Positions 3,047 to 19,703 of a stretch of 64,000 nt of DNA are shown in pieces; the stretch's first letter is position 1, and every line of letters begins with the position of its first letter. The DNA comes from Luteimonas terrae (lineage in GTDB: Bacteria; Pseudomonadota; Gammaproteobacteria; Xanthomonadales; Xanthomonadaceae). Where the stretch lies: NCBI RefSeq assembly GCF_004358165.1, contig NZ_SMTG01000005.1, forward strand, positions 62,001-126,000, given 5' to 3'. Under the pieces are notes generated by a model, which was given only the letters and a program-made list of their open reading frames with translations, searched no databases and was not told the origin of the DNA. A program made the translations under genes and the position numbers.

Positions 3047-3109
3047 GCGGGCGCGAGCGGCCGAGGCCGCGAGATCATCCCGCAGTGGTCCGGCTTGGCC
3101 GGACCGACG

Positions 3110-3952
3110 ATGTGCCATCCAGAGGCCCGATTCTTGAAACTATTCCCCCGCTTGCTGCTTTCGCCGGCGCTCGAGGTCATCCGGCACCGGGCGCTCATCC
3201 GCGAGCTGACCCGTCGCGAGATCGGCGGTCGCTATCGTGGCGCTAGCCTCGGCGTGCTCTGGTCGCTCGCCAGCCCCTTCATTCTGCTGTGCATCTACAC
3301 CTTCGCGTTCGGCACCGTGATGGGGGGACGCTGGCCGGAGCCGCAGGCCACGGGGACCCACTTCTCGGTCGTGCTGTTCGCGGGGCTGGTGGTGTATTTC
3401 CTGGTGTCGGAGTGCATGGTGCGTGCCCCCGACCTCGTGATCGGCAACCCGTCCTTCGTCAAGCGGGTGGTGTTTCCACTGGAAATCCTGCCTTGGCCGA
3501 TGCTGCTGACGGCCTGCTTCCACTGCCTCATGAACACGCTCGTCTTCATCGCGCTGAGGCTTGTGCTGGACGGCGAGTTCTCCTGGACCATCGTGATGCT
3601 GCCCATCGTGCTGGCGCCCATGGCTCTGGTGGCGCTCGGCATCTCCTGGTTGCTAGCTTCGCTGGCGGTTTATATGCGGGATATCCAGCAGGTCATCGGC
3701 ATGGCGAGCATGGCGCTGCTGTTCCTGTCGTCGGTGATGATTCCGACCACATCGGTACCTGCGGAATACCGCTGGGTCTACCAGCTCAATCCACTGTCTT
3801 TCATCGTCGACCAGGCGCGCGCCGTGATGATCTGGGGTGTCCAGCCGGACTGGAAGGGCCTGTTTTTCTACAGTCTCGGCGCGGTGGCCTTCATGTATGT
3901 CGCACGCGCCTGGTTCGTGGCCACGAAGCGGGGGTTCGCCGATGTCCTGTGA
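3110..3952 (+). CDS. wzm: O-antigen/polysaccharide ABC exporter permease (Wzm)
   Basis: ABC-2 type inner-membrane permease, 280 aa, with six predicted transmembrane segments. The N-terminal amphipathic stretch LIRELTRREIGGRYRGASLG before TM1 (VLWSLASPFILLCIYTFAFG) is typical of Wzm/TagG/KpsM exporters, as is LNPLSFIVDQARAVMIWG near the C-terminus. It should form the channel that moves undecaprenyl-PP-linked O-polysaccharide to the periplasm together with the next gene product. ATG 3110 is chosen over an upstream TTG at 3095. Its 3' end overlaps wzt by 11 nt, indicating translational coupling. Less G+C-biased codons than the housekeeping genes fit a transferable locus. Confidence 0.9.
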   Translation: MCHPEARFLKLFPRLLLSPALEVIRHRALIRELTRREIGGRYRGASLGVLWSLASPFILLCIYTFAFGTVMGGRWPEPQATGTHFSVVLFAGLVVYFLVSECMVRAPDLVIGNPSFVKRVVFPLEILPWPMLLTACFHCLMNTLVFIALRLVLDGEFSWTIVMLPIVLAPMALVALGISWLLASLAVYMRDIQQVIGMASMALLFLSSVMIPTTSVPAEYRWVYQLNPLSFIVDQARAVMIWGVQPDWKGLFFYSLGAVAFMYVARAWFVATKRGFADVL

Positions 3953-5294
3953 GCCCGCCATCGTCACGCGCGGCGTGCACAAAATCTTTCCGATGTACGA
4001 CAAGCCGTACAAGCGGCTGATGGAACTGTTGGACCCCCGGGATGGCACGCACTGGCGACGCGATTTCCATGCGCTCAAGGGCATCGACCTGGAAATCTCG
4101 CGGGGTCAGACGGTCGGCATCATCGGCCGGAATGGGTCAGGCAAGTCCACGTTGCTGCAGATCATCTGCGGCACGCTCGCGCCGTCCTTGGGCACGGTGG
4201 CCGTCAACGGGCGGATCGCGGCACTGCTCGAACTGGGCGCCGGATTCAACCCGGAGTTCACCGGTCGGGAGAATGTGTTCCTCAACGCCACCATTCTCGG
4301 GCTGGACCGGGCGCAGACCGAAGCGCGGCTGGACGACATCCTCGCGTTCGCGGAAATCGGCGAGTTCATCGATCAGCCGGTCAAGAACTATTCCAGCGGC
4401 ATGTACGTGCGCTTGGCCTTCGCGGTCGCGATCAACGTCGAGCCGGACATCCTGGTGGTGGATGAGGCGCTTTCCGTGGGCGACGAGGCATTCCAACGCA
4501 AGTGTTTCGCGAGGATCGAAGCGATTCGCGAGACGGGCGCGACGATCCTGTTCGTGTCCCACTCCGCCGGCGCCGTGGTCGACCTCTGCGACCATGCCGT
4601 GGTCCTCGACGCAGGCGAGGTGATATTCAGAGGCTCACCGAAAGATGCGGTGACCAACTACCAGAAGATGCTATACGCGCCGAAGGAGCGGCAGTCCGCG
4701 ATCCGTGCATCGATCATCGGGCAAGGTCGCGCAGCCGACAATGCCGCCGCGGCACCGGGTTCGCCGATGCGATCCGAAACGCCGCAGGCCTTGGCCGAAG
4801 GCGCGCGGGCTTGGTTCGACCCCGGGCTGGTGTCCGCCAGCACGATCTCCTACGAGAACAAGGGGGTCGAAATTCGCGAGCCTCGTGTGCTCACGCCGGA
4901 GGGAGAGCAGGTCAACATGCTCGTGCACGGGCACGATTACATTTACACCTATCACATCGAGCTGCAGCAGACGCTGTCCCGCTTGCGTTGCGGGATGATG
5001 ATCCGCAGCACCACAGGTGTCGAAATCGGTGGTTTCTCGACCGACGCATCCGATCCGGCAATGGCGCTTCAAGCTGCTGGAGCCTGCATGGAAGTGCGCT
5101 TCCGCTTCCGATGCCTGCTCAATCCGGGCGTCTATTTTCTGAATGCCGGCTGCCTTGCCGATGTCGACGGAGCCGAGGCGTACGTCGGCCGGCACATCGA
5201 TGTAGCGATGTTCCGGGTCCAGGCCGAGCCGGCGCTGGGCGCCACGGCGTTGGTCAACTTCGTCGAACGCGCGACCGTGGAGATGCGGTCTTGA
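3942..5294 (+). CDS. wzt: O-antigen ABC exporter ATPase with C-terminal glycan-binding-type domain (Wzt)
   Basis: 450-residue ATPase. The nucleotide-binding domain (about 1-240) has Walker A GRNGSGKST (near residue 62), signature YSSGMYVRLAFA, Walker B DILVVDEALS and H-loop FVSHSAG. The remaining ~200 residues form a Wzt_C-type beta domain (GVEIREPRVLTPEGEQVNML; MMIRSTTGVEIGGF). In characterised systems (E. coli O8/O9a, Raoultella O12) this extra domain reads a modified chain terminus and gates export, so a terminally modified O-polysaccharide is expected here. The start is ATG 3942 inside the end of wzm; the stop overlaps the next gene by 4 nt (TTGA). Confidence 0.9.
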   Translation: MSCEPAIVTRGVHKIFPMYDKPYKRLMELLDPRDGTHWRRDFHALKGIDLEISRGQTVGIIGRNGSGKSTLLQIICGTLAPSLGTVAVNGRIAALLELGAGFNPEFTGRENVFLNATILGLDRAQTEARLDDILAFAEIGEFIDQPVKNYSSGMYVRLAFAVAINVEPDILVVDEALSVGDEAFQRKCFARIEAIRETGATILFVSHSAGAVVDLCDHAVVLDAGEVIFRGSPKDAVTNYQKMLYAPKERQSAIRASIIGQGRAADNAAAAPGSPMRSETPQALAEGARAWFDPGLVSASTISYENKGVEIREPRVLTPEGEQVNMLVHGHDYIYTYHIELQQTLSRLRCGMMIRSTTGVEIGGFSTDASDPAMALQAAGACMEVRFRFRCLLNPGVYFLNAGCLADVDGAEAYVGRHIDVAMFRVQAEPALGATALVNFVERATVEMRS

Positions 5295-6811
5295 GTGTTC
5301 GATTGGATCGGATCGGCATTCTTGTCGCAGGTATGCACCGGAGCGGCACCTCGGCGATCACCGGATGTCTGGAAAGCCTGGGTGTTGCGCTGGGGACCGG
5401 CCTGCTGCCGCCGGGAAGCGACAACCCCAAGGGGTATTTCGAGAGCGAGCGGGCCGTTCGCATCGACGATGCGCTTCTCGCTGGACTGGATCGACGCTGG
5501 GACGATGCGCGTGCGCTGCCTGCTGGCTGGACGGAAACCGCAGTCGCGACGTCGGCGCTCGCGGAGATCGCCGCGCTGCTGCAGGACGAGTTTCCTGCCG
5601 AACCCGTATTCGCGATCAAGGATCCACGTCTCTCGCGATTGTTGCCGGTGTGGCTGGATGCGCTGCGCCGGACCGGTAGCACGCCGCGCGTCGTCCTGGT
5701 GGTCAGACACCCGTCGGAGGTGGCGGCGTCCATCCAGAAGCGCAATGGATGGTCGCCCGCGGTTTCCGAGTTGCTCTGGCTGCGCCACATGCTGGCCGCG
5801 GAGCGCGACTCGCGCGGCGTTCGCAGGGTGGCGGTGACCTACGACCAGCTCATCGATCGACCCCTGCAGACGATGACGGCGGCGCTCGGCGCGCTGGGCG
5901 TGGAGGTCGATGGTCGCGGCGACGTGCTGGATGCTTTCGTGTCGGCCGGGGATCGGCATTTCGAGGGTGGCGAAGGTGCAGCGTCCGGAACCGGACTGAC
6001 GGAAATCGCCACCGGCGTCTACAAGGATTGCGTGGCCATGGCTGGCGGGCAAGACGTGCCGCCGGCGGCGTTCGACAGGCACGCGCAGGCGCTGGAGACG
6101 CTGCTCTCTTCGACAGGCCCGCTGGTCGATGGCTTGGGGGGCATGGCGCTTGCATTCGCACGCCGAGTGGAGGAGGCCGAGGCGGAACTGGCGACGGTCC
6201 GGTCATCTCTAGAAGCGCAACTCGCTTGGTCGAAGAGTGCGGTCGAGGCGCGTGAACGTCTCAATGCGGAACTGGCGAGGGTGCAGTCCGAGCTGGCAGC
6301 GCAGGTGTCGTGGTCGGAAAGCGCGGTAGCCGAGCGCGAGCGCCTCCACGCGGCTGTGGCGGAGCTTCGCTCGAACCTGACGGCGCAGACGCAGTGGTCC
6401 GAGCATGCCGTCGACGAACGCGATCGCCTCAATGCGGCGTTGGCGAAGCTTCGCTCCGACCTGACGGCGCAGATCGCCTGGTCGGAGAGCGCAGTGGTCG
6501 AGCGCGAGAAGATGCACGAGACCATCGCGCAACTCCGCTCGGATCTGGCCGCGCAGGTGCGATGGTCGGAAGAGTCGATGGCGGTGCGCGAGCAGCTACG
6601 CGCGGAACTGGCCGAGGCCTCCGTCGAGCTGGATGCGACCCGGCTCGAAGCGCAGCAGTCGAGGCAGCATTTCGAGGCACGGGAGGCTGCCCTGGCATCG
6701 GATGCAGACTGCCTGCGCCGCCGTCTCGAGCGTTACGAATCCAGCCTGTTCGGAAAGCTCCACCGCAGGTGGGTCGACAGGAATTCCCAAGACACTCCGG
6801 ATACCAATTAG
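5291..6811 (+). CDS. Sulfotransferase-like domain fused to a repeat coiled coil (candidate O-antigen terminator/ruler)
   Basis: 506 residues. Residues ~8-280 look like a PAPS-dependent sulfotransferase: the 5'-phosphosulfate loop GILVAGMHRSGTSAI (8-22) and a 3'-phosphate motif RVVLVVRHPSEVAASI near residue 135. Residues 305-444 are five 28-residue heptad repeats (see separate entry), followed by more predicted coiled coil and a basic C-terminus. The start is a TTG at 5291 overlapping the wzt stop (TTGA); no ATG precedes the motif. Chain-terminating enzymes such as WbdD also combine a modifying domain with a coiled-coil ruler next to Wzt, so an analogous sulfation-based role is inferred. Other nucleophilic transferase roles are possible; activity is unproven. 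Confidence 0.75.
   Translation: MSVRLDRIGILVAGMHRSGTSAITGCLESLGVALGTGLLPPGSDNPKGYFESERAVRIDDALLAGLDRRWDDARALPAGWTETAVATSALAEIAALLQDEFPAEPVFAIKDPRLSRLLPVWLDALRRTGSTPRVVLVVRHPSEVAASIQKRNGWSPAVSELLWLRHMLAAERDSRGVRRVAVTYDQLIDRPLQTMTAALGALGVEVDGRGDVLDAFVSAGDRHFEGGEGAASGTGLTEIATGVYKDCVAMAGGQDVPPAAFDRHAQALETLLSSTGPLVDGLGGMALAFARRVEEAEAELATVRSSLEAQLAWSKSAVEARERLNAELARVQSELAAQVSWSESAVAERERLHAAVAELRSNLTAQTQWSEHAVDERDRLNAALAKLRSDLTAQIAWSESAVVEREKMHETIAQLRSDLAAQVRWSEESMAVREQLRAELAEASVELDATRLEAQQSRQHFEAREAALASDADCLRRRLERYESSLFGKLHRRWVDRNSQDTPDTN
6203..6622 (+). repeat. Five in-frame 84-bp tandem repeats coding coiled coil
   Basis: Five consecutive units of exactly 84 bp begin at 6203, 6287, 6371, 6455 and 6539. 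Each encodes 28 residues (four heptads) around the pattern S-x-L-x-A-Q-x-x-W-S-E-x-A-V-x-E-R-E-x-L. Examples are SELAAQVSWSESAVAERERL and SDLTAQIAWSESAVVEREKM. The units have diverged at many positions, so the array is not a fresh slippage product, but the fixed length argues for origin by unit duplication. Confidence 0.95.
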
Positions 6812-6819
6812 GCGAGCAC

Positions 6820-7959
6820 ATGATCTATTTCACATCCATCTGTTCCAACTATCTTCCCAAGGCGATGGCGCTCGCCGAGTCGGTGAAGCGCCACTGCAAG
6901 GACGCCACGTTCGTGCTGTGTCTGGTCGAACGCGAGGTGCCGGAGGTCGCGCTCGCGTTCCCGCACTTCGACGAAGTCGTGCTCGCCAAGGACGTTGGCT
7001 GGGAGGACTTCGACCAGTTCATCTTCAGGCATTCGATCGTCGAGGCGTCCACGGCGGTCAAACCGCAGTTCATGCGAGGCCTTCTCGAGCGCCATCCGGA
7101 GGTCGAGAAGTTCGTGTATCTGGACCCGGATGTGCTCGCCTACAGCCACTTTTCCGAACTCGAGGAGATCCTCGATACACAGAGCATCGTCGTGTGCCCG
7201 CATCTGCTCCGACCGGGCAATATCGACATGGAGATCAGCTCGCTGGCGCACGGCACCTACAACCTTGGATTTCTGGCGGTTCGGCGGAGTGCGAACGCGG
7301 AGGCGTTTCTCGGCTGGTGGGCCGAGCGTCTGTTCCGCTTCTGCTACGACGACAAGGCGCGCGGCATCTTCACCGACCAGAAGTGGATCGATCTCGCGCC
7401 CTGTTTCTTCGACGTGCATATCCTCAAGCATCACGGATACGACTTCGCGACTTGGTCACTGCTCGACAGTGACCTGAGGAGAGTGGGCGACGCTCACGTC
7501 GTCAACGGCGATCCGCTCCGGTTCATCCATTTTTCTGGCCTGGATTCCGGCACCATCGACAAGGCGATCGGCTGGTGGCTGCGTGACGACAACAAGGCCG
7601 ATTTCGTGGCGCTGTACCAGCACTACCTTGCGCTGCTCGATGCCCACGGTCAAAAGACGCTCGGGAAGATGCCCTGGTCGTATGCCAACTATGTTAGCGG
7701 GGAAAAGATCGAGAACGATGCCCGAGTGGCCTATCGGGATCCCGACATGTGGCAGCGGTATCCGCGTCCGTTCGATGTGAGCAACGCCACGTTTCGGGCG
7801 CCGCCCGCGCCACAGGGCGTTCTGGAGGTGACGGAATCAACCGGCGCCGGGCAGACGCCGGGTCTATATGAGAAGTTCCGTCGATCCAGTCGGGAGATCG
7901 GTGTGGTGGGCACGCTGAAGAAGTCGGTCGACAGGGTACTCAACGGGCCAGTGCGCTGA
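6820..7959 (+). CDS. Glycosyltransferase (GT-A fold, GT8-like)
   Basis: 379-residue cytoplasmic glycosyltransferase. It opens with YFTSICSNYLPKAMALAESV, a GT8-like N-terminus, and carries the metal-binding DxD in KFVYLDPDVLAYS near residue 104, then YNLGFLAVRR, the QKWIDLAPCFF segment and HFSGLDS. ATG 6820 is preceded by GGCGAG, a weak ribosome-binding site, and follows the sulfotransferase-like gene by 8 nt. It overlaps the next gene by 1 nt. It probably adds one sugar of the O-polysaccharide; donor and linkage cannot be read from the sequence. Confidence 0.82.
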   Translation: MIYFTSICSNYLPKAMALAESVKRHCKDATFVLCLVEREVPEVALAFPHFDEVVLAKDVGWEDFDQFIFRHSIVEASTAVKPQFMRGLLERHPEVEKFVYLDPDVLAYSHFSELEEILDTQSIVVCPHLLRPGNIDMEISSLAHGTYNLGFLAVRRSANAEAFLGWWAERLFRFCYDDKARGIFTDQKWIDLAPCFFDVHILKHHGYDFATWSLLDSDLRRVGDAHVVNGDPLRFIHFSGLDSGTIDKAIGWWLRDDNKADFVALYQHYLALLDAHGQKTLGKMPWSYANYVSGEKIENDARVAYRDPDMWQRYPRPFDVSNATFRAPPAPQGVLEVTESTGAGQTPGLYEKFRRSSREIGVVGTLKKSVDRVLNGPVR

Positions 7960-8876
7960 TGGAAGGTCTGCGCAAGGTGTCTGTCGTGATTCCGTGTTTC
8001 AACGGGGGTGCGACGATCGACGAGGCGATCCGGTCGGTCCATGAGCAGACCTATCCGAATATCGAAATCGTGGTCGTGGACGATGGTTCGACAGACCTTT
8101 GCACCATCGAATTGCTGAAGCGCTCCGAGTGGGCGAATACGCGCATCGTCTGGAAAGACAACGGTGGCCCGGCATCCGCGCGCAACAGGGGCATTGCCGA
8201 GTCGTGTGGCGAGTACGTCCTGCCGCTCGATGCGGACGACCGGATCGCTGCAACCTATATCGAGCAGGCGGTCGCGGTGCTCGATGCGAGGGCCGACGTC
8301 GGCGTCGTGTACTGCAAGGCCATGCGTTTCGGCGCTGACAGCGGCTTGTGGATGCTTCCGGATTACTCCGAGCGCGAGCTGACGATCGACAATGTCATCT
8401 TTGTCACGAGTCTTTTCCGCAAAGCCGACTGGACGGCAGTTGAGGGTTTCAGCGAGACGCTCAAGCATGGTGTGGAGGACTACGATTTCTGGCTGAAGAT
8501 CGTCGGTGGACTGAATCGGGCGGTGGTGCAGCTGGACGAGCCGCTATTCTTCTATCGCGTCCAGGATGTCTCGCGCACCACGCAGTTCAATGGTCAGCGC
8601 CCGATCGTGGTGACCACGTATGCGGACATTTTCAGGAACAACATCGCGTTCTTCGCCCGGAATGCCGAGTACATCTTCGAACATCGATTCGGCATTTACG
8701 ATGAGCTGGTGCGATACAGGGCGCGATATGCCCGATTCGACGCATTAATGGACAGGCACGTGCGGGTCAGACGGGTGCTTTCTGGACTCTGGGCCGTGGT
8801 GTGCCGGGTGATCGATAGCCGATTGGTGTCGGGTCTCCGCGACCGGGTGCGGGCTGTCGGTTCCGGTGGGAAATGA
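7959..8876 (+). CDS. Family 2 glycosyltransferase
   Basis: 305-residue inverting GT-A glycosyltransferase. The N-terminus KVSVVIPCFNGGATIDEAI, the nucleotide-binding IEIVVVDDGSTD and the DxD region YVLPLDADDRI (near residue 87) are diagnostic; KHGVEDYDFWLKI carries the usual ED acceptor-site motif. Its start overlaps the previous stop (TGATG), so it is co-translated with the upstream glycosyltransferase. It is predicted to extend the O-polysaccharide or its adaptor on undecaprenyl-PP. Sugar specificity is unknown. Confidence 0.9.
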   Translation: MEGLRKVSVVIPCFNGGATIDEAIRSVHEQTYPNIEIVVVDDGSTDLCTIELLKRSEWANTRIVWKDNGGPASARNRGIAESCGEYVLPLDADDRIAATYIEQAVAVLDARADVGVVYCKAMRFGADSGLWMLPDYSERELTIDNVIFVTSLFRKADWTAVEGFSETLKHGVEDYDFWLKIVGGLNRAVVQLDEPLFFYRVQDVSRTTQFNGQRPIVVTTYADIFRNNIAFFARNAEYIFEHRFGIYDELVRYRARYARFDALMDRHVRVRRVLSGLWAVVCRVIDSRLVSGLRDRVRAVGSGGK

Positions 8877-9260
8877 GCGGCGTGGAAGCCGGCATTCACG
8901 CTCGTGCCGGGTTGGCTGCGTGCAATCTCCGGTCCGGTCGCGTCCGGTGCAAGTTGCGAATAAGAACCGGCCAGTATCAAGCGATGCAGGCGCTGATCGT
9001 CCCATCGAATTTGGAGACGGCCGCTGGACTGCAGACTGCACAGCGGGATGCGTGCGTTGAGTGCGGAGTTTTCACTTTTCCGGCCCGAAACTTCAGCTCG
9101 TGGCACAGGTTGCGTTGCAGGTCTCTATCGCCGACTCCGACACACGCGGCCATCCGGTACGCGTCAAGCTGCGCTTGCGATCGGTCGGCTCGCGAACGGG
9201 GCGCGACGTTCATCATGTTCAAGCGTGAAGCCGCGCTTCTCTAATGCAGGTATCCAACAC
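8877..9260 (+). other. 384-nt gap with no recognised gene
   Basis: Short frames here (for example 8873-9244 on the plus strand) have no conserved motif, no clear ribosome-binding site and an unbiased composition rich in Arg, Cys and Ser. I see no terminator hairpin with a T-run and no convincing promoter. The gap breaks the otherwise tight spacing of the O-antigen genes and may mark a recombination joint. Confidence 0.5.
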
Positions 9261-11855
9261 ATGAATCGACAATCGGCCGAGCGGTCGACCGTCTGGAGCA
9301 ATCGTCCGATCAATCTTCTGCAGCGATTCGTCGATGGCTGGTCGAACATGAGTCTTCTGGGGCGTGTGCTGCTCGTAGGTTCGGTGACGATTTCGATCGT
9401 CTGGCTGTCGCTGGGCGCGTATCAGAGCCACTACATCTCCGGGTTGCGGCTGCTGGGGGACGATGTGACTCAGACCATTTTCGGCAGCCCCAGAGAGGGG
9501 CGTGGCGACGAGTGGTCGACCTACATACCGATGCTCAAGCAGGCGTATCTGGAAGGATTTCCGGAAACGTCGAGGCTCGAGCCCTACCTCGAGTCGTATC
9601 GGCTTTTTGTGGGCATCCCTCGGCCCGACTGGACGATGATATTTACGCCCACGCTCGCTTTGTACTTCGTCTTGCCCGGACCGTTGGCGCTGTCCTTCCA
9701 AGGCTTGTTCTACAACGCGCTGTTCCTGGCCTCGTTCGTCTGGCTGCTGACGAACCTCGGGGCCAGGAAAGAGGTCGCGGTTCCCGTCAGCCTGATGGTG
9801 CTCTTCAGCATGTACTACCAGGTCTGGTGGAGCAGCAATCTGTCCACGTTGGGGCCGAGTCTGCTGCCGCTGGCGGTGCTCTCGGCAAACATGCGCTGGC
9901 GGTACAAGTTCTTTCTGCTCACCTGGTCGATCTCGCACATGCTCATGGGTGCGATGTATCCGGCGTTCTACTACGTCATCGCGTTCTCGCTGGCGCCGCT
10001 TGTACTGCTCATGAAGCGGGATTTGCTGCGGCCGACCGCGTTGATCCTTGCGGCGCTGAGTGCAGCTATCGCGGTTGCCATCTACTGGAGCCAATATGCC
10101 GACTACATCGAGGCAGTCAGCCTGACAGCCTATCCGGGCGCTCGCTTCAGTACCGGTGGAGGGGCGCCTTGGAGCGTGCTCTTGGGCCTGATCTTCCCGA
10201 CCGCTGCCGCCGTCAGCCCGGTGGATGTCGGTCTAACCGTTTACGAGTTGTGCGTGGTCGGGACCGTGCTGCCACTGATCGCGATCGCTGCATTGCTGCG
10301 GACCGGATCGGCCCGGGATTCGGCACCGCTCCTGGTTCTCTTCGTCACGATGTTCGTGATCATGGCGATCTTCACGGTCGTGGGCGGCTTCCCGCAGTCA
10401 CTAGCGAAGTACACGGGGCTGTTCATCGTGCCGGGCCGTCGTATGCAGCTCGGTCTTTCATTGCTGACGGTCGGTGTGTGCGCACTGTTGATCTCGAGAG
10501 CCTACGGAAAGATCGAAAACAGGCAGATGCTCGTCGCCGCGGTGATCTTCACTATCGGAAGCCTTGTGGTCGGCGTCCGGGCGGACGCCCGGGGGCAGTT
10601 CTTCATGATCGAGGCATATCCCTGGATCTTTCTGGCACTGGTCGTGATCGGAATCGCGCTGGATGTGCTCCGCTCGGATCAGCGCGCATTCGCACACGGG
10701 ACACTGGCCTTGCCCGTGGTGCTGTGGGGCGCCGCGCTCGCTCACGTGATCATCTTCGGCTCGTTCAATCCTGTCATGCGGGCGAAAGACATTCTCACGC
10801 CTGTCCGGACCCAGCTGACAGAAGACTGGAAGGCATTGTTCGAGGCGAATGGTGGCAAACCCATCGCAACGCTCGGAAACTACGGGCACCTTCTGCGTGG
10901 CGAGAATCTGCCGGCGCTGGAAGCGATCCATCTGATCAATGTCGAAGACGAGACCTATCGACGCACCTTTCCAGAGTTCACCCGCGCGGATCGCGAAACA
11001 CTGTTCAACCAGATGCGCGGGATCCGGTTCGACAATGTCAAGCAGTACGATGCGGCCGGAATCACGGCGATCCTCCCGGTCATGGAGCACGCGTATCGCA
11101 TTGAGCCGGATTTCCGAACGCTACTGCCGTCTCTGCTGGACGACATCGAGCCGCTAAACGAGCAAATGGCTGTCGACGATGTCGAGCAGATCAACCTCAG
11201 TGACTTCAGAGTGTTCTGGAAATCGAGGCTGGACCAAGCGCTTCCATTGGACTCTCGCCTGGTTGTAAATTCGGGGTGCCGCATTCTTTCCACAGAGCTG
11301 ACGCGTTATCCGGTCGACATCACCGCTTACTCGGGCAATGTGATGCTGCGTGGCCTTGCCGGCGTCACGACGCTGCAAGCGGGAACGAAGGAGGCGGCGG
11401 AAGCCTGTGCCGTCTCGATGAAACTGACGTCGCCCACGATTGCAGCGAGGCACTCGGAAAAATTCGTGATCGTTCCGAATGCTCAGCTCGATGGCGCCGC
11501 GTGGTCGGGACGCGCCTGCGACCTGAGCGGCGAGCCCAACCGGACGTTCGGTCCAAGGCGAAACATTACGCTCGATGGTTATCTCATTGGCGCAAACGGC
11601 GGCTTGGTGTCCGATTTCACCCTGCTGCTGAGAGACAAGGAAGCGGGCAAACTGTACGGCGGCGGCGCGATCACGGGTGCCGTCAGAAAAGATGTCGCCG
11701 AGTACTTCGGGTCGGAGGTGCTGTCGCGCTCGGGTTTCAAGGCACGCTTCTCGCTTGAAGGCGTGGATGCGGGTCACTACGATGTCGTGTTCCTTTTCGC
11801 GGAGAAGGGTGCGAATTTCTTCTGCGAATCCGGAAAAAATATCGTGGTCTTGTGA
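9261..11855 (+). CDS. Large polytopic membrane protein, GT-C-like (possible sugar transferase)
   Basis: 864 residues. About 550 residues of hydrophobic segments (for example LLGRVLLVGSVTISIVWLSL; ALILAALSAAIAVAIYW) are followed by a ~310-residue soluble C-terminal domain. The first extracytoplasmic loop holds acidic residues (LLGDD; GRGDEWSTYIP), as in lipid-linked-sugar GT-C transferases. I recognise no precise family. ATG 9261 is used because the open frame upstream has no coding character. Its position before a small 4-TM protein and a DPM1/GtrB-like enzyme suggests the periplasmic transferase of a three-part glycan-decoration module; this is inference. Confidence 0.75.
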   Translation: MNRQSAERSTVWSNRPINLLQRFVDGWSNMSLLGRVLLVGSVTISIVWLSLGAYQSHYISGLRLLGDDVTQTIFGSPREGRGDEWSTYIPMLKQAYLEGFPETSRLEPYLESYRLFVGIPRPDWTMIFTPTLALYFVLPGPLALSFQGLFYNALFLASFVWLLTNLGARKEVAVPVSLMVLFSMYYQVWWSSNLSTLGPSLLPLAVLSANMRWRYKFFLLTWSISHMLMGAMYPAFYYVIAFSLAPLVLLMKRDLLRPTALILAALSAAIAVAIYWSQYADYIEAVSLTAYPGARFSTGGGAPWSVLLGLIFPTAAAVSPVDVGLTVYELCVVGTVLPLIAIAALLRTGSARDSAPLLVLFVTMFVIMAIFTVVGGFPQSLAKYTGLFIVPGRRMQLGLSLLTVGVCALLISRAYGKIENRQMLVAAVIFTIGSLVVGVRADARGQFFMIEAYPWIFLALVVIGIALDVLRSDQRAFAHGTLALPVVLWGAALAHVIIFGSFNPVMRAKDILTPVRTQLTEDWKALFEANGGKPIATLGNYGHLLRGENLPALEAIHLINVEDETYRRTFPEFTRADRETLFNQMRGIRFDNVKQYDAAGITAILPVMEHAYRIEPDFRTLLPSLLDDIEPLNEQMAVDDVEQINLSDFRVFWKSRLDQALPLDSRLVVNSGCRILSTELTRYPVDITAYSGNVMLRGLAGVTTLQAGTKEAAEACAVSMKLTSPTIAARHSEKFVIVPNAQLDGAAWSGRACDLSGEPNRTFGPRRNITLDGYLIGANGGLVSDFTLLLRDKEAGKLYGGGAITGAVRKDVAEYFGSEVLSRSGFKARFSLEGVDAGHYDVVFLFAEKGANFFCESGKNIVVL

Positions 11856-12431: not shown

Positions 12432-13226
12432 ATGAGACCCGATCACAGTTTCGTCATTCCTGCCTACGGTTGTTCGCCACATCTGACCGCATGTCTCGAG
12501 TCCCTGCAGGCGCAGACTGCGCCTGGATCGGAGGTCGTGTTGTGCACGTCGACGCCGTCCGAGACGCTGTCGCGCATCGCGGAGCGATTCGATGTGGAAG
12601 TGCGGGTGCACGAACCGAACGCTGGCATCGGCCGCGACTGGAACGCGGCACTCGATTGTGCGTCGCGCAGTTGGGTCACCATCGCACACCAGGATGATGT
12701 GTATCTGCCACGTTTCGTCGAGCGGACGATGGCGACGGTGTCCAAGACGCCTGGAGCATCCTTGGCGATGACGGGTTACTCGGAACTGCTCGACGAGCGG
12801 ATTCGCGAACGCTCTATGATGCTCCGCATCAAATCCCTGTTGCTCGAAGTCGGCTTTCTCGGGCGTGACGCGGCGGCATCGCGAAGTTCTAAGACTCGCC
12901 TGCTGCGCTTCGGCTGTCCGGTTGCATGTCCCTCCGTCACGCTGGGCCCGTCACTGTCGAATCTGCGCTTCCGCGAGGATCTGCGTGTCGATTTGGATTG
13001 GGATGCGTGGATTCGTGCTGCTCGACTTCCGGGTGCGTTCTGCTACGTGAGAGACCGTTTGATGCTTCACCGCATTCACGGTGAGAGCGAGACGACCGCA
13101 GGTGTGCGAGATGGAGTGCGTGCCCGCGAAGATGCGGAGATGTTCGCGTCGCTCTGGCCGGCGCCGGTGGCAAGATTGCTGGCGCGCGCGTACGCGACGT
13201 CCTACGAGGAGGGCGGTCATGCATGA
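12432..13226 (+). CDS. Family 2 glycosyltransferase
   Basis: 264 residues. The N-terminal HSFVIPAYGCSPHLTACLES, the nucleotide-binding region SEVVLCTSTPSETL and the metal/donor region NAGIGRDWNAALDCASR..IAHQDDVYLPRF (QDD replacing the common DxD, near residue 88) indicate a GT2 enzyme. A later RVDLDWDAWIRAA carries acidic acceptor-site residues. ATG 12432 starts 8 nt after the small membrane protein gene. The stop overlaps the next gene by 8 nt. Specific donor and acceptor are not evident. Confidence 0.85.
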   Translation: MRPDHSFVIPAYGCSPHLTACLESLQAQTAPGSEVVLCTSTPSETLSRIAERFDVEVRVHEPNAGIGRDWNAALDCASRSWVTIAHQDDVYLPRFVERTMATVSKTPGASLAMTGYSELLDERIRERSMMLRIKSLLLEVGFLGRDAAASRSSKTRLLRFGCPVACPSVTLGPSLSNLRFREDLRVDLDWDAWIRAARLPGAFCYVRDRLMLHRIHGESETTAGVRDGVRAREDAEMFASLWPAPVARLLARAYATSYEEGGHA

Positions 13227-14235
13227 GAGCCCTCCGACCGTCATGTCGACGTCCTACGGGGAAATGACCTTGGCTGCAACGAGTGACCGGGTTGCCATCG
13301 TGATCCCGTCTTATCGCGTATCGCGCCACATTCTTGATGTCGTGGCAGGATTGCCGAACTGGATATGGCGGGTGTACGTCGTCGACGATCGCTGCCCCGA
13401 TGGCAGCGGTGCCTTGGTGCAGTCGCAGTGCACCGATCCGCGGATCAGGGTCGTATTCAACGAGGTCAACCTTGGCGTCGGCGGTGCAGTAATGGCCGGC
13501 TACGCACAGGCGGCTGCCGACGGCGCTGACATCATCGTCAAGATGGACGGCGATGGGCAGATGGATCCAGCGCTGCTTTCCCGTTTCGTGGATCCGATTG
13601 CGGCAGGCGAGGCGGACTACACCAAAGGAAATCGCTTCTACGATCTGTCGCAGATCGGGCAGATGCCACGAATCCGTATCTTCGGCAACGCGGGCCTTTC
13701 CTTCATGACCAAGATATCGTCCGGCTATTGGGATCTGTTCGATCCGACCAACGGATATACCGCGATCCACGCACGAGTGGTCTCAAAGCTGCCGATGGAG
13801 AAAATCAGTCGGCGTTATTTCTTCGAGACCGACATTCTGTTCCGGCTCAACACGCTCCGTGCCGTCGTCGTCGATGTGCCGATGGATGCTAAGTATGGTG
13901 ACGAAGAAAGCGGGTTGAAGATCGGCAGGATTTTCTTTGATTTTCTTTCGAAGCACGCGCGCAATACCGGTAAACGAATTTTTTACAATTACTTTCTGCG
14001 CGATCTGTCGCTGGCGACCTTCGAACTTGTCGGTGGTTTGGCTCTGCTGTTTGCGGGTCTCGTGCTAGGGGCGTGGTTCTGGATCGAAGCCTCTAGTCTG
14101 GGCGTACCGACATCGGCCGGGCGAGTAATGTTATCCGCCTTGCCCGTCATTCTCGGCTTGCAGCTGCTTCTGGGCTTTATGGCCTTCGATATCGCCTCGG
14201 TTCCGCGACGCGCCATTCATCGATTGCTGCGCTGA
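13219..14235 (+). CDS. DPM1/GtrB-like polyprenyl-phosphate glycosyltransferase
   Basis: 338 residues. The GT2 domain (about 25-250) has VAIVIPSYRVSRHILDVVAG, WRVYVVDDRCPDGSG, the NLGVGGAVMAGYAQA motif typical of dolichol-phosphate-mannose-synthase homologues, and DxD in IIVKMDGDGQMDP. Two C-terminal helices follow (LALLFAGLVLGAWFWI; VMLSALPVILGLQLLLGFMA). It probably loads a sugar onto undecaprenyl phosphate at the cytoplasmic face. ATG 13219 has a strong AGGAGGG at 13207-13213 and overlaps the previous gene by 8 nt; ATG 13243 and 13264 are alternatives. Relatively A+T-rich stretches near 13980-14000 contrast with the flanking housekeeping genes. Confidence 0.85.
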   Translation: MHESPPTVMSTSYGEMTLAATSDRVAIVIPSYRVSRHILDVVAGLPNWIWRVYVVDDRCPDGSGALVQSQCTDPRIRVVFNEVNLGVGGAVMAGYAQAAADGADIIVKMDGDGQMDPALLSRFVDPIAAGEADYTKGNRFYDLSQIGQMPRIRIFGNAGLSFMTKISSGYWDLFDPTNGYTAIHARVVSKLPMEKISRRYFFETDILFRLNTLRAVVVDVPMDAKYGDEESGLKIGRIFFDFLSKHARNTGKRIFYNYFLRDLSLATFELVGGLALLFAGLVLGAWFWIEASSLGVPTSAGRVMLSALPVILGLQLLLGFMAFDIASVPRRAIHRLLR

Positions 14236-14288: not shown

Positions 14289-14897
14289 ATGTCCACGGAG
14301 TTCGATTCCCGTTATACGCAGTACCAACTGGATCGCAGTCCTGTACGCAAGTGGGTGCGCCAGATCTATCTGGAGCGTGCGGCCTCTCTCGTGAGGGGCC
14401 CGACACTAGACTTCGGGTGCGGCGTCGGAGAACTGCTGAGGAGGTTGCCGGCGGGTTCGAAGGGGCTGGAGTACAACACTGCGACAGTGGAGCACTGTCG
14501 GCGTGAGGGGCTCGACGTGGCGCCCTATGACGGGTTTGAAGACGACTGGGGTCTCACTGCACTTTCAACGAAGCCCGGGTTCGAGAGCATGGTGGTCAGC
14601 CACGTCCTCGAACATCTCAACGCGCCCATGGAAGTATTTGTGAAGCTGCTGGGCGCAGCGTCCAGACTCGGTGTGCGTCGCGTGCTGGTGACTGTGCCAG
14701 GCCAGGCCGGCTTCCGGATTGATCCGACACATCTGACCTTCGTTGATCGATCCATGCTGCTTGACGAGGCGATGTTGGCAAGTACGGGCTTTCGACCGGT
14801 GCGAGATGGATACTTCCCGGGAGATCTGCGCTGGATCGGCGACTGGTTTCCGCATCATGAGTTGCAGGTGGTTTACGAGCGATCGCCGGCCACTTGA
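14289..14897 (+). CDS. SAM-dependent class I methyltransferase
   Basis: 202 residues with motif I GPTLDFGCGVGELLRRL (near residue 40), acidic motif II KGLEYNTATVEHCRREGL, and the post-I/II pattern FESMVVSHVLEHLNAP typical of Methyltransf_11/Ubie-like enzymes. ATG 14289 follows AAAGGAGCGTCGGG, a good ribosome-binding site. As the last gene of the O-antigen locus, with its stop only 24 nt from the convergent etfA stop, it probably methylates a sugar or a lipid-linked intermediate. The true substrate is unknown. Confidence 0.85.
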   Translation: MSTEFDSRYTQYQLDRSPVRKWVRQIYLERAASLVRGPTLDFGCGVGELLRRLPAGSKGLEYNTATVEHCRREGLDVAPYDGFEDDWGLTALSTKPGFESMVVSHVLEHLNAPMEVFVKLLGAASRLGVRRVLVTVPGQAGFRIDPTHLTFVDRSMLLDEAMLASTGFRPVRDGYFPGDLRWIGDWFPHHELQVVYERSPAT

Positions 14898-14921: not shown

Positions 14922-15869
14922 CTATTCGCCCAAAGTCGCTTCCAGCTCCGGCAACACCTTGAACAGGTCGCCCACCAGTCCGATGTCCGCGATCTCGAAG
15001 ATCGGCGCGTCGGCGTCCTTGTTGATCGCGACGATCGTACCGGCGTCCTTGATGCCGGTCAGATGCTGGATCGCGCCGGAGATGCCGATTGCGACATAGA
15101 GCTCGGGCGCGATGATCTTGCCGGTCTGGCCGACCTGCAGTTCATTAGGGACATAACCCGCGTCGACCGCTGCGCGCGAGGCGCCGACGGCGGCGCCGAG
15201 TTTGTCGGCGAACTCGAAGACGATCTTGAAGTTCTCTTCCGAGCCGACGCCGCGGCCGCCAGAGACAACCCGCTTGGCGCTTTGCAGGTCAGGACGATCA
15301 GTGCTGCCGGCGGCGAGGCCGACGAAGCGGGTATGGACGGGCAGGGCAGCATCGACGGTGGCGGTCTCGACAGGGGCACTACCGCCGCGTGCCGACTCCT
15401 GCCAAGACGCGGTACGCACGGTGGCCACGACGGTCTGGTCGGCCGGCGCTTCGACCGTGACGATCGCGTTCCCCGCGTAGATCGGGCGCTTGAAGACGCG
15501 GCTGCCCTCGACCGTCATCAGGTCGGAGACCTGATTCACGCCAAGCAGGGCCGCGACCACAGGCATCAGATCCTTGCCGAATGTGGTCGACGGGGCAAAC
15601 ACGTGGCTGTACCCGGACGCCAGCGCGGCGATCTGCGGGCCGAGCACCTGGGCGAGCGCCTGCGCATTGGCGGGATTGGCGACCGCAAGCACCTTCGCGA
15701 CGCCGGCAATGGTGGCAGCATCGGCCGCAGCGGCCGACGGATCAGCCGCGAATACAGCGACATCGATGGCATCGGGCGACAGCGCTTGCGCGGCGGCGAC
15801 GGTCTTGGCGGTCGCGCTGGCGTTCAGGACGCCGTCGAGATGTTCGGCGATGACGAGGACTTTGGACAC
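14922..15869 (-). CDS. etfA: Electron transfer flavoprotein alpha subunit
   Basis: 315 residues. The FAD-binding C-terminal signature is present: [20 protein letters not shown], then [20 protein letters not shown] and [12 protein letters not shown]. With EtfB it passes electrons from acyl-CoA and other dehydrogenases to ETF-quinone oxidoreductase. The start is taken as GTG at 15869 ([13 protein letters not shown]), preceded on the minus strand by AGGAGAACACC; the longer frame lacks conserved residues. It follows etfB in a two-gene minus-strand operon. etfA is the conserved right-hand border of the LPS locus in Xanthomonas, matching this layout. Confidence 0.97.
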
Positions 15870-15934
15870 GGTGTTCTCCTGTACTCCGGCGGGGCCGGAC
15901 GTCGCTGGGCGCCCGCGTGGCGGGCGCAACGGAA

Positions 15935-16681
15935 TCAGAGCAGGCCCTTGGCCTTCAGGGCAGCGACCAGTTCGGCCGCATCCTTGACCATAACGCCCTT
16001 GCCGCGCTTGGTCGGCGCTTCGAAGTGCGTGGTCCTCAAGGTGTCAGCCGATTCGACGCCGAGATCGGCGAACGGGATCGACTCCATCGGCTTGGACTTG
16101 GCCTTCATGATGTCCGGCAGCTTGATGAAACGCGGTTCGTTGAGGCGCAGGTCGGTTGTGACGACGGCCGGCAGGTCCACTTCGAGCGTCTCCAAGCCAG
16201 CGTCGACTTCGCGCGTGACCGTGGCCTTGCCGTCAGCGATCTCGACCTTCGAGGCGAAAGTCGCCTGCGGGCGGCCCCACAGCGTCGCCAGCATCTGACC
16301 GGTCTGGTTGGCATCGTCGTCAATCGCCTGCTTGCCGAGGATCACCAGATCCGGCTGTTCCTTCTCGACCAGCTTGAGCAGGGTGCGGGCCGCGGTCAGC
16401 GGCTGGATGGCCGCATCGCAGACCACGTGGATGGCGCGGTTGGCCCCCATGGCCAAGCCGTTGCGCAGATGGGCCTGGGCGTCGCCGGGCGCGATGGTCG
16501 CCACCACGACCTCGGCGGCGACACCCTTGTCGCGCAGTCGCAGGGCTTCTTCCAATGCGATCTCGTCGAAAGGATTGGCCGAGAGCTTCACGCCATCGGT
16601 GACCACGCCGGACCCGTCCGGCTTGACCTGGATGCGGACGTTGTAGTCCACCACGCGCTTGTAAGCGACAAGGATCTTCAT
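15935..16681 (-). CDS. etfB: Electron transfer flavoprotein beta subunit
   Basis: 248 residues, beginning MKILVAYKRVVDYNVRIQVK, with the family motifs SANPFDEIALEEALRLRDKG (AMP-binding side), VVVATIAPGDAQAHLRNGLA, DLVILGKQAIDDDANQTGQM and GRPQATFASKV. It is the AMP-containing partner of EtfA and is first in the minus-strand operon, 65 nt upstream of etfA. The 230-nt space to the divergent cysD holds both promoters. Confidence 0.97.
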   Translation of the reverse strand: MKILVAYKRVVDYNVRIQVKPDGSGVVTDGVKLSANPFDEIALEEALRLRDKGVAAEVVVATIAPGDAQAHLRNGLAMGANRAIHVVCDAAIQPLTAARTLLKLVEKEQPDLVILGKQAIDDDANQTGQMLATLWGRPQATFASKVEIADGKATVTREVDAGLETLEVDLPAVVTTDLRLNEPRFIKLPDIMKAKSKPMESIPFADLGVESADTLRTTHFEAPTKRGKGVMVKDAAELVAALKAKGLL

Positions 16682-16911: not shown

Positions 16912-17865
16912 ATGGAAAACGCAGTGCAGTCGTCGTTCGTCCCAGCAATCGGGCTCTCGTCTTCGTCGGTCTCGGCAGATCTCGACCGTCTGGAAGCCGA
17001 AGGCATCCACATCCTCCGCGAGACGGCCGCGGAATGCGCGCGTCCGGTCCTGCTGTATTCGATCGGCAAGGACAGTTCCGTACTGCTGCATCTTCTGCTG
17101 AAGGCGTTTGCACCGGCGAAGCCGCCAATTCCGCTGCTGCACGTCGATACCTTGTGGAAATTCCGCGAGATGATCGAGTTCCGGGATCGGCGTGCAACGG
17201 AAACCGGCGTCAACCTCAAGGTTCATGTCAACGCCGACGGCGCACGCGAAGGGGTCGATCCGCAGATTCACGGTGCCGCGCGGCACACTGAGATCATGAA
17301 AACGGTCGCGTTGAAGCAGGCGCTCGAGGCAGGACGCTACGACGCGGCAATCGGCGGTGCCCGCCGGGATGAAGAGAAATCCCGGGCCAAGGAGCGGATT
17401 TTCTCTTTCCGTGACGGACGGCATCGCTGGGACCCCCGTCAGCAGCGCCCGGAGTTGTGGAACCTGTACAACCCGCGCGTCTCGGCAGGAGAGAGCGTTC
17501 GGGTGTTTCCTCTCTCCAATTGGACAGAGCTCGATGTGTGGCGCTACATCAAGCGGGAGAGCATCCCGGTCGTGCCGCTCTACTTCGCGAAACCTCGGCC
17601 CGTAGTGCGCCGCAATGGCGTGTATCTGATGGTCGACGACGAGCGCTTCAGGTTGTTACCCGGCGAGGAGGTCGAGACGCGGAGTGTCCGGTTCCGCACA
17701 CTCGGTTGCTATCCACTGACTGGGGCTGTGGAGTCGGAGGCGGCCGATCTCGACGCCATCATCTCGGAGATGGCGTCAGGACGTCAGTCCGAACGGGCCG
17801 GGCGACTGATCGATCATGCTGAAGGCGACTCGATGGAAAAGAAGAAGCGCGAGGGATATTTCTGA
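16912..17865 (+). CDS. cysD: Sulfate adenylyltransferase subunit 2
   Basis: 317 residues; catalytic subunit of ATP sulfurylase, forming APS from ATP and sulfate with CysN GTPase. Motifs include the PP-loop variant [20 protein letters not shown] (about 45-64), [39 protein letters not shown] and [18 protein letters not shown]. It overlaps cysNC by 1 nt (TGATG). APS/PAPS can feed sulfate assimilation or sulfotransferases. Here it lies between etfB and rmlB inside the polysaccharide region, which favours a link to the sulfotransferase-like gene at 5291. The ATG lacks a ribosome-binding site. Confidence 0.96.
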
Positions 17866-19703
17866 TGCCCCTCGAGACGGATGCGTTCGTCAGACTCGTT
17901 GCGTGTGGCAATGTCGATGACGGCAAGAGCACGCTGATCGGGCGGTTACTGTACGAGAGCGGCAGCGTGCCGGATGACGAAGTCGCCGCGTTGGTCAGGG
18001 CCAGCGCCGCCCACGGCACGCGCGGCGCCGATCTCGACTTCGCGCTGCTGCTGGACGGTCTGGAGGCGGAGCGCGAGCAGGGCATCACCATCGATGTCGC
18101 ATGGCGGCACTTGGTGACCGGCGCCCGACGATTCCTGATCGCGGACTGTCCGGGACATGTGCAGTACACGCGCAACATGGCCACCGGCGCCTCGCAGGCC
18201 GATGTAGCAGTCATGGTCGTCGATGTCGCGAAGGGGCTGCTGCCGCAGACGCTGCAGCATGCGACCATCGTCGCGCTGCTTGGCGTGCGGCATGTCGTGC
18301 TTGCGGTCAACAAGATGGATCGGGTCGACTACGATCGCGCGGCTTTCGATGATCTGGTTTCGCGATTCGTCGCGCATGCGGCGCGCTTGGGCGTGGAGGA
18401 TGTGGTCGCGATACCGGTGTCCGCTGCGTTGGGCGTGAACGTGTCCAGTCGCTCCAACGAAGCGCGGTGGTATGCGGGTCCGAGCGTGCTCGAAGTGCTG
18501 CAGCGTATCGATGTATCGAAGGAGATTTCAGGTACGCCACGTGTGGCCGTCCAGCAGGTCATCCGTGATGCGGACGGTGCCCGCTGGCTGGCCGGCACGG
18601 TGACCCGCGGGCATTTGGATAGCGGCATCCAGGTCCGGGTGGAGCCGTCGGGGACCGCCGCTGTGATCGAGTCGTTGCTGCGCGCGGGTGTCGAAGCGCA
18701 GGCAGCCAGCGCCGGCGACGCGGTGGCAGTGCGACTGGGCCAGGACGTGGATGCAGGCCGAGGCGATGTCCTGACACCTGTCGACGCGCCGCTGCAGGTC
18801 AGCGACCAGTTCGCTGCCGATGTCTTCTGGTTCGACGATGCGCCACTGGTTGCCGGGCGGCGTTACCGCTTCAAACTGGCCACCCGGACCGTCGGCGCAC
18901 GCATCACGGAGATCAAGCATCGACTCGACCCCGAGAGCCTGCAGTTCCTCGCGGCCAAGCAGCTGGCTTTCAACGGAATTGGGGCAATCTCGTTGGCGCT
19001 TGATGCCCCGATAGCGTTCGCATCCTACCGTGAGGATCCTGGGCTGGGTGCGTTCATCCTGATCGATCCGATTACGAACACCACCGTGGGCAGCGGCATG
19101 ATCCGCCATGGTCTGCGTCGGGCCGACAACGTGTCCTGGCAGTCAGTGGACATCGACCAGGCTGCGCGTGCCGCACTCAAGGGGCATCGAGCCCGGTGCA
19201 TCTGGTTTACCGGTCTGTCGGGCGCGGGCAAGTCGACGATCGCCAATCTGGTGGAGCGTGGACTTGTGGCGAAGGGCGTGCACACCTATCTGCTCGACGG
19301 AGACAACATCCGGCATGGCCTCAACAGCGATCTCGGATTCACCGACCGGGATCGCATAGAGAGCCAGCGACGGGTATCGAATGTCGCCAAGCTGATGACG
19401 GACGCAGGGCTGGTGGTAATCGTAAGCCTGATATCGCCATTCCGCGCCGAACGCGACGCCGCACGCGGACTGTTTGCAACTGGCGAGTTCCTCGAAGTCT
19501 TCGTGGACACGCCTCTGGAAGTCGCCGAGCGTCGGGACGTGAAGGGGCTGTACGCGAAAGCCCGTCGAGGCGGGTTGCCCAACTTCACCGGCATCGATTC
19601 GCCATACGAGGCGCCGCATTCCCCCGAGCTCGTGCTCGACACCACGGCGTTTTCGGCGGCGCAGTTGGCGGAGCGCGTAATCACCCACGTGCTGGATGTC
19701 TGA
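17865..19703 (+). CDS. cysNC: Bifunctional sulfate adenylyltransferase subunit 1 / APS kinase
   Basis: 612 residues. The N-terminal CysN GTPase (about 1-435) has G1 [20 protein letters not shown]3 [12 protein letters not shown] and G4 VNKMD. The C-terminal CysC APS kinase (about 440-612) has Walker [20 protein letters not shown], then [15 protein letters not shown] and the GLYAKARRG segment. The fusion is common in proteobacteria and makes PAPS directly available. It is co-translated with cysD. PAPS is the donor that a sulfotransferase would require. Confidence 0.97.

Follow-up and report, generated by a model that had tools for sequence, protein, structure and literature searches.

A candidate sulfotransferase-based chain terminator and length ruler coupled to Wzt in Luteimonas terrae

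A coiled-coil protein is the marker of chain terminators, the capping enzyme being placed at its distal end (PMC11231755), and the caps described in the literature excerpts examined are methyl, methylphosphate and Kdo. In WbdD of Escherichia coli O9a and Klebsiella pneumoniae O3, a kinase-methyltransferase terminator with a coiled-coil ruler, an N-terminal catalytic head is followed by a long C-terminal coiled coil, the C-terminal module of Wzt reads the cap and the glycosyltransferases are separate proteins (PMC3482155, PMC11231755). In WbbB (K. pneumoniae O12) and ORF6 (O7), a single polypeptide combines the terminator with the coil and the glycosyltransferases, and the heads add Kdo or methylphosphate (PMC11231755). 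A sulfotransferase-domain protein of 216 aa, ORF19, lies between wzt and wbbB in the wbsalmo locus of Aeromonas salmonicida; in the excerpts of that paper the authors report no sulfate in the O-antigen and describe the role of ORF19 as not known (PMC4483657). RaxST of Xanthomonas has been reported to sulfate a signalling peptide (PMC4216712).

We analysed a stretch of 64,000 nucleotides of the L. terrae genome, hereafter the window, that carries the following features.

3095-3952, + strand: wzm, ABC-2 membrane subunit (PF01061, 3.1e-23; start codon uncertain)
3942-5294, + strand: wzt, ATP-binding subunit with C-terminal extension (translation: ABC_tran 6.6e-23, Wzt_C PF14524 2.5e-23)
4845-5252, + strand: Wzt_C domain (PF14524, residues 302-437, 2.5e-23), which is presumed to bind carbohydrate and would recognise the end of the chain
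5291-6811, + strand: sulfotransferase/coiled-coil gene, 506 aa, with a TTG start overlapping the wzt stop
5318-5911, + strand: Sulfotransfer_3 domain, residues 10-207 (PF13469; Foldseek matches to the sulfotransferases 4gox, 4gbm, 8w5z and 3ap3)
5330-5353, + strand: loop GMHRSGTS, residues 14-21 (aligned relatives partly picked by this loop)
5705-5731, + strand: motif RHPSEVAAS, residues 139-147 (R139 and S147 invariant)
6116-6739, + strand: one unbroken predicted helix/coiled coil over residues 276-483, which may act as the ruler (AlphaFold model)
6203-6622, + strand: five tandem 28-residue repeats, residues 305-444, with Trp at an equal place (W313, W341, W369, W397, W425)
6746-6784, + strand: basic helix at the C-terminus, residues 486-498, which may contact the membrane or the polymerase (AlphaFold model)
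6820-7959, + strand: glycosyltransferase, GT8-like (PF01501, 2.8e-4, below cut-off)
7959-8876, + strand: GT2 glycosyltransferase (PF00535, 5.4e-27)
9048-11855, + strand: DUF7657 protein (PF24677, 5.4e-40)
12432-14235, + strand: two GT2 glycosyltransferases (12432-13226 and 13081-14235)
14289-14897, + strand: stand-alone methyltransferase, 202 aa, rival cap enzyme (MetW/Methyltransf_23 matches)
14922-16681, strand opposite to the glycosyltransferase run: etfAB
16912-17865, + strand: cysD, ATP sulfurylase small subunit (TIGR02039; second genome copy on contig C5)
17865-19703, + strand: cysNC, sulfurylase large subunit fused to APS kinase, which would make PAPS (NF004035, apsK)

The good PF14524 match points to a partner Wzt with a C-terminal carbohydrate-binding domain, as in terminators of the WbdD and WbbB kind. 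This Wzt_C subtype has hardly any sequence similarity to the solved modules (E about 0.3; 0.29-0.36 for the ABC-transporter chains 8dky/6o14) and goes with sulfotransferases. The start of the 506-aa gene and the wzt stop overlap in TTGA, and another in-frame TTG lies at 5303.

The PF13469 match of the 506-aa protein is barely above the cut-off (1.2e-6; 29.4 bits against 27). We take GMHRSGTS to be the 5'-phosphosulfate loop and RHPSEVAAS to be the 3'-phosphate-binding motif. In an alignment of 25 sequences, the window protein included, G14-A22, K110-R113, R139 and S147 are invariant; since the relatives were chosen with a pattern for the phosphosulfate loop, the constancy of the loop is partly a matter of choice, which does not affect that of R139 and S147. 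The AlphaFold model has pLDDT mostly 85-98 over this domain, and its six Foldseek matches in the PDB at E<=0.001 comprise Teg14 apo and five chains that carry sulfotransferase in their titles. The TM-scores by target of the six best matches are modest (0.41-0.48), partly because the long helix is counted in. A phmmer search of PDB sequences yielded two hits at E of 1 or less (0.18 and 0.85), and no sulfotransferase or WbdD entry was among them. Profile score, conserved loop and R...S motif, and predicted fold all point to a Sulfotransfer_3 head. The four Pfam families with a match at E 0.1 or better included no methyltransferase or kinase domain, so that the protein falls outside the WbdD family, and Pfam found no glycosyltransferase domain in it.

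Behind the head, the model predicts one helix with pLDDT mostly 55-85. Self-identity at an offset of 28 residues is 0.475, against a maximum of 0.247 over all offsets in 2000 shuffles, and a chance origin of the repeats was rejected. Repeat number differs among relatives: five in the window protein, eight by reading in its closest relative (L168), and 15 Trp in register in L192. Of 113 sulfotransferase proteins, 12 have three or more in register, compared with 0.35% of shuffles. Terminators of the WbdD and WbbB kind are expected to end in an amphipathic, membrane-associated helix; the C-terminal helix here is weakly amphipathic, with a hydrophobic moment of up to 0.60 and a negative mean hydrophobicity. 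The earlier note on this DNA had described a Wzt with a long C-terminal domain, a gene starting inside the wzt stop, a PAPS-type sulfotransferase domain with these two motifs and a coil of five equal repeats, all of which our analysis confirmed, and the structure prediction that it proposed was run and gave sulfotransferases as the best PDB matches.

In the model the enzyme head lies at the N-terminal, predicted distal end of a long coil, as in WbdD; unlike WbdD, the head is a PAPS-type sulfotransferase instead of a methyltransferase and kinase. Also as in the WbdD system, a Wzt C-terminal module would read the cap and the glycosyltransferases are on separate proteins. The relatives L014, L015 and L253 are closer to WbbB and ORF6, carrying a sulfotransferase, a coil-like region and C-terminal glycosyltransferase domains in equal module order; the window protein differs in its domain content, and the donor here would be PAPS. 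The window gene adjoins wzt as the ORF19 gene does, whereas ORF19, at its published length, is too short for a long coil.

The cysD-cysNC genes, which the earlier note had placed in the same locus, do lie there, about 10 kb away; given this distance and the opposite-strand etfAB between them and the glycosyltransferase genes, they share the locus but only possibly an operon. Two cysD-cysNC pairs are present in the genome, which gave no match for CysH or for the CysI family (NIR_SIR); the latter search was positive in 11 of 14 control genomes. Plain sulfate assimilation was rejected as the role of cysDNC on these results. The 5291-6811 gene is the only PF13469 gene in the genome and PF00685 has no match; as these two were the sulfotransferase families sought, other PAPS users may exist. 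Of 22 genomes in the genus that have cysD but not cysH, 15 have no such sulfotransferase. A table of cys genes, compiled by hand, covers 29 genomes; it omits 23 of 52, including four with a more distant sulfotransferase (G003, G020, G027, G050), and counts G006, with both sulfotransferase and methyltransferase loci, under sulfotransferase.

Gene order, the gene overlap, the sulfotransferase domain with its predicted fold, the repeats, Wzt_C, and PAPS genes in a genome without CysH and CysI families form the sequence and model basis of the following proposal. The 5291-6811 protein would be the PAPS-dependent chain terminator and length ruler of a Wzm-Wzt O-polysaccharide system, with PAPS supplied by CysD-CysNC. 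The long coil of 28-residue repeats would hold the sulfotransferase away from the membrane-side glycosyltransferases, and sulfate would be added to the non-reducing end of a chain that has grown far enough to meet the head. The Wzt C-terminal domain would then read the sulfate cap, the exporter would thereby recognise it, and export would require sulfate. We consider it probable that sulfate is the chain-terminating cap, with length set by the coiled-coil ruler and the cap read by Wzt. The earlier note had put this forward as a hedged proposal, and it gains support from the fold matches, from a slot shared with coil-bearing methyltransferases, from the pairing of Wzt type and sulfotransferase (less clear outside the order), from the varying repeat number and from the PAPS genes without CysH or CysI families. 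Weighing against it are the shallow and partly discordant pairing, the sulfotransferases with an inexact loop, the genomes of the genus with cysD but neither cysH nor such a sulfotransferase, the modest fold scores, the A. salmonicida case and the weak amphipathicity of the C-terminal helix.

Among 43 Wzts of the order other than the window's own, selected by C-terminal domain alone, 42 have a downstream sulfotransferase; its domain lies within 120 nt of the wzt stop in 38 and 1.3-3.6 kb from wzt in four. The exact loop pattern is absent in 6 of the 42 sulfotransferases, four of which score lower. For the best 30 ABC-domain matches (own included), a sulfotransferase was present in the examined fragment for 10 of the 11 that have the C-terminal type and for 0 of the 19 that lack it. 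Duplicates and Wzts with a short C-terminal part were removed before counting (128 to 112 rows in the comparison of ABC and C-terminal domains). Relatives were taken from one search as the best 80 of 567. The tree of 103 Wzt ABC domains also excludes 80 loci selected by sulfotransferase, several of which have a Wzt without the C-terminal type (e.g. L063, L075, L076, L127, L133).

These data bear on the possibility that the sulfotransferase and one Wzt C-terminal type are simply co-inherited as a wzm-wzt-sulfotransferase block, which would say nothing about sulfate recognition. On the tree, the C-terminal type changes 3 times and sulfotransferase presence 8 times, and the independent-pairs test was not significant because it had only 2 pairs; the association is phylogenetically shallow, with few independent events. 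Wzts with the type also resemble the window Wzt more closely in the ABC domain (55-79% identity) than do those that lack it (32-63%). Thirteen of the 103 Wzts are discordant: six sulfotransferase loci have another C-terminal type (L014, L016, L017, L018, L019, L022), and seven with the type have no match to the sulfotransferase profile. One of the seven, L258 from another family, has a Sulfotransfer_1 protein with a coil-like tail behind a Wzt with a similar C-terminal domain. Against co-inheritance, within the 53-61% range of ABC identity the 11 Wzts with the type stand apart in C-terminal similarity (68-150 bits, against 0-45 for the other 35, among which L017 and L076 have a sulfotransferase further on). 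Six of the 11 come from distant lineages (L084, L090, L096, L120, L123, L132), though these and L093 were found through their sulfotransferase. Outside the order, nine Wzts chosen by C-terminal domain only included three with a sulfotransferase matching a home-made profile (two adjacent, one a gene further on), one with a Sulfotransfer_1 protein, one with an unassigned coil protein, three with none and one cut by the contig end. We regard co-inheritance alone as unlikely.

The slot behind wzt is informative about a second alternative, namely that the sulfotransferase modifies internal or side-chain residues, the coil is a membrane or complex scaffold and another enzyme, such as the 14289-14897 methyltransferase, terminates the chain. 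Within the genus, this slot holds coil-like proteins with sulfotransferase heads, with heads of three methyltransferase families (Methyltransf_11 in L035, L037 and L043, with a partial match in L041; Methyltransf_24 in L036, L039, L040 and L042; FkbM in L045 and L047) or with DUF4915 heads (nine loci). Heads were assigned partly with home-made profiles, and the coil calls come from a rough composition-based scan that has no background rate and is not a coiled-coil predictor. A 28-residue period above 300 shuffles occurs under sulfotransferase (window, L014) and DUF4915 (L026, L031) heads; the Trp spacing of 28 is also found in L024 (DUF4915) and L035 (methyltransferase), without exceeding shuffles. 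Internal sulfation would fit the stand-alone methyltransferase in the cluster, the four relatives with a sulfotransferase at a distance from wzt, and L256, where a methyltransferase-like gene (named by eye) lies between wzt and the sulfotransferase gene. However, in 38 of 43 the sulfotransferase immediately follows wzt, in the place taken by the other coil-bearing heads in the genus, and the methyltransferase, at 202 aa, is too short to include a long coil such as the terminators in the excerpts of PMC11231755 have. We consider internal sulfation rather improbable. A third alternative, that the target is a lipid, a protein or, as reported for RaxST, a signalling peptide and that the gene lies beside wzt by chance, is very improbable: tyrosylprotein sulfotransferases (3ap3, 8w5z) are among the best fold matches, but in two families of the order the sulfotransferase gene immediately follows wzt, and relatives have it fused to glycosyltransferase domains.

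Turning back to sulfate as the terminal cap, the swapped heads raise the tentative idea, which we put forward with some reserve, that termination is a plug-in system in which a 28-residue-repeat ruler carries interchangeable capping heads. These would include the sulfotransferase, its sulfate cap being read by the matching Wzt domain, and the beta-propeller DUF4915/TIGR03032 as an unrecognised capping enzyme or end-reader, the latter in genomes with PAPS-synthesis genes, mostly without CysH.

The literature matches listed included no report of a sulfotransferase acting as chain terminator. A 2019 census of chain terminators in Glycobiology reportedly predicts new cap chemistries and may already list sulfotransferases, so that the novelty of a sulfate cap is provisional. 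If the proposal is true, it would widen the set of mechanisms by which bacteria are known to end surface sugar chains, with charged sulfate as an added cap chemistry, and the swapped heads in one slot would make cap recognition by Wzt testable through matched and mismatched pairs. It would also tie the length of the O-chain to sulfur metabolism and account for the retention of PAPS synthesis in a bacterium without CysH or CysI families.

The gene content of the window places the sulfotransferase/coiled-coil gene directly behind wzt, among the genes listed below.

Genes of the locus (positions in the window where given)
metB, in the window
3095-3952, wzm
3942-5294, wzt
5291-6811, sulfotransferase/coil gene
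GT8-like gene and GT2 genes, in the window
DUF7657 protein, in the window
small methyltransferase, in the window
etfAB, opposite strand, in the window
16912-19703, cysD-cysNC
genes matching dTDP-rhamnose enzymes (nucleotide-sugar dehydratase/epimerase, nucleotidyl transferase, RmlD), in the window
mannose-nucleotide genes and RgpF protein, in the window

As the earlier note had stated, the sulfotransferase gene begins inside the wzt stop and cysD-cysNC is present in the same window. The two coding sequences overlap in TTGA. The note had also assigned the product a PAPS-type sulfotransferase domain, and this is supported by a Pfam match to Sulfotransfer_3 (residues 10-207, barely above the cut-off), by invariant R139 and S147, and by the structure comparison that it had proposed. 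In the AlphaFold model an N-terminal domain predicted with confidence is followed by a single helix (276-483). Sulfotransferases head its list of PDB matches, although the similarity is modest, the first six having TM-scores by target of 0.41-0.48. The loop GMHRSGTSA and K110-R113 are likewise invariant in the 25 aligned sequences, the relatives having been chosen partly by the loop, which bears on its constancy.

Sulfotransferase genes were found behind wzt in other genomes, where the earlier note had suggested looking for the fusion. When 398 genomes of the order were searched using only the C-terminal domain of the window Wzt (Wzt_C, PF14524), this type turned up in 44, own genome included. 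A same-strand sulfotransferase lies downstream in 42 of the 43 other Wzts, its domain starting at most 120 nt after the wzt stop in 38 and 1.3-3.6 kb on in four; the sole exception, L210, has a DUF4915-type protein instead. Six of the 42 sulfotransferases deviate from the loop pattern, four of them also having lower scores. Among the 30 best matches to the ABC domain by itself, a sulfotransferase lies inside the examined fragment in 10 of 11 loci with the C-terminal type (own included) and in 0 of 19 without it; in the eleventh (G126) it lies 1.2 kb on. As a point against the association, on an ABC tree of 103 Wzts, 46 have both type and sulfotransferase, 44 neither, seven the type only and six the sulfotransferase only; since the type changes just three times on this tree, these counts represent few independent events.

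In the phylum sample the type occurs in 11 of 398 genomes, nine of them new. The sulfotransferase adjoins wzt in two (L253, L254), lies one gene on in L256 and is absent from L255, L257 and L260; the contig of L261 ends within the locus. In L258, from another family, a protein with Sulfotransfer_1 and a coil-like tail (4216-5262) adjoins wzt, a second sulfotransferase family in this position; it also matches Sulfotransfer_3, slightly below the cut-off. The L259 gene behind wzt (3112-4641) encodes 509 residues with an FRSGST loop, a coil-like region and no Pfam match, and may represent a further sulfotransferase type.

Within the genus, the protein was matched in 12 of 52 genomes (own included), by the coil only in G035, leaving the sulfotransferase part in 11, at 28-33% identity in four (G003, G020, G027, G050). 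Besides the window, L016 and L019 have the sulfotransferase gene immediately after wzt; it is farther downstream in L014, L017, L018 and L021-L023, on the opposite strand past wzm in L015, and in L020 the examined stretch contains no wzt. Loci L014 and L016-L019 carry a different, mostly shorter Wzt C-terminal domain, a second type of sulfotransferase-Wzt pairing.

Wzt-like genes occur in 33 of the 52 genomes. In the stretches around them, with genes called by a simple rule, the gene behind wzt scores coil-like in most cases by composition scan. Pfam matched DUF4915 in seven of 19 such proteins, Methyltransf_11 in four (one partial), Methyltransf_24 in four, FkbM in two and only glycosyltransferases in two; one of the latter (L048) is not the gene next to wzt but the one after it, and the gene between them matches the FkbM profile. 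G006 has two wzm-wzt loci, one with a sulfotransferase-coil-glycosyltransferase protein (L015) and one with a methyltransferase-coil protein (L035).

A home-made profile gives nine DUF4915 N-terminal domains, or heads (L024, L026-L032, L034), each DUF4915/TIGR03032 head being fused to a coil and glycosyltransferases behind wzt. For the L034 head AlphaFold predicts a beta-propeller, at pLDDT 88.5; in six sequences, many D, H, R and C residues are invariant. The DUF4915 head is possibly an unrecognised cap enzyme or an end-reader; a literature search on TIGR03032 found no paper in the library covered.

A contig scan with the sulfotransferase alignment gave 567 relatives, the best 80 of which were taken as loci. 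These include Stenotrophomonas, Dyella, Rhodanobacter, Silanimonas, Desulfonema and Sulfuricella. In 69 of these best 80 the stretch that follows the sulfotransferase scores at least 0.60 in the coil scan, and 22 have a same-strand wzt within about 1.2 kb; being sulfotransferase-selected, they were excluded from the unbiased Wzt-sulfotransferase test.

The five equal repeats described earlier correspond to 28-residue units at 305-444 within the helix, each with Trp at one constant place. Among the 22 coil regions long enough for a periodicity test, period 28 exceeds 300 shuffles in four, namely the window and L014 (sulfotransferase heads) and L026 and L031 (DUF4915 heads). L024 (DUF4915) and L035 (methyltransferase) have 28-spaced Trp at three or four places, not above shuffles, and the period is absent from the remaining regions. 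The closest relative, L168, shares the window repeat with eight units versus five, counted by reading the sequence, five of the eight keeping Trp in register without interruption; in L192, 15 Trp stand in register. At least three Trp in register occur in 12 of 113 sulfotransferase proteins versus 0.35% of shuffles, and 101 are without them. A varying copy number of a fixed unit is the pattern that would be expected of a tunable ruler, falling short of proof.

As to the source of PAPS, both PF01507 genes of the genome are CysD, one in the window and the other on contig C5; there is one PF13469 gene, and no CysH, NIR_SIR or PF00685. The genome carries two cysD-cysNC sets (16912-19703 and C5:1427790-1428728) and lacks the CysH and CysI families. 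In the genus, cysD without cysH was found in 6 of 7 genomes with sulfotransferase loci, 8 of 9 with DUF4915 loci and 3 of the 13 whose gene behind wzt has a methyltransferase or another head (Fisher p 0.017 and 0.0075, uncorrected for kinship and from a table compiled by hand). Fifteen of the 22 genus genomes with cysD and without cysH have no such sulfotransferase, so in these PAPS serves a different purpose, or none recognised.

The available portions of PMC11231755 treat coiled-coil proteins as the marker of terminators, place the capping enzyme distally, and describe methyl, methylphosphate and Kdo caps; those of PMC3482155 describe the WbdD architecture, and those of PMC4483657 a sulfotransferase-domain gene beside wzt where sulfate is not known. 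Our literature search, which did not reach a cited census of terminators, found no sulfotransferase terminator among the papers it listed. The window protein is not a member of the WbdD family, because it matches no methyltransferase or kinase domain, and resembles WbdD in its proposed mode of working. Confidence in a sulfate-capping terminator and ruler is slightly lowered because the fold matches are modest and because the shared repeat under a methyltransferase head consists of Trp spacing only. The reading with the most support is a terminator that caps the chain with sulfate and carries a coiled-coil ruler; we regard it as fairly likely, with a putative chemistry and a putative terminal position.
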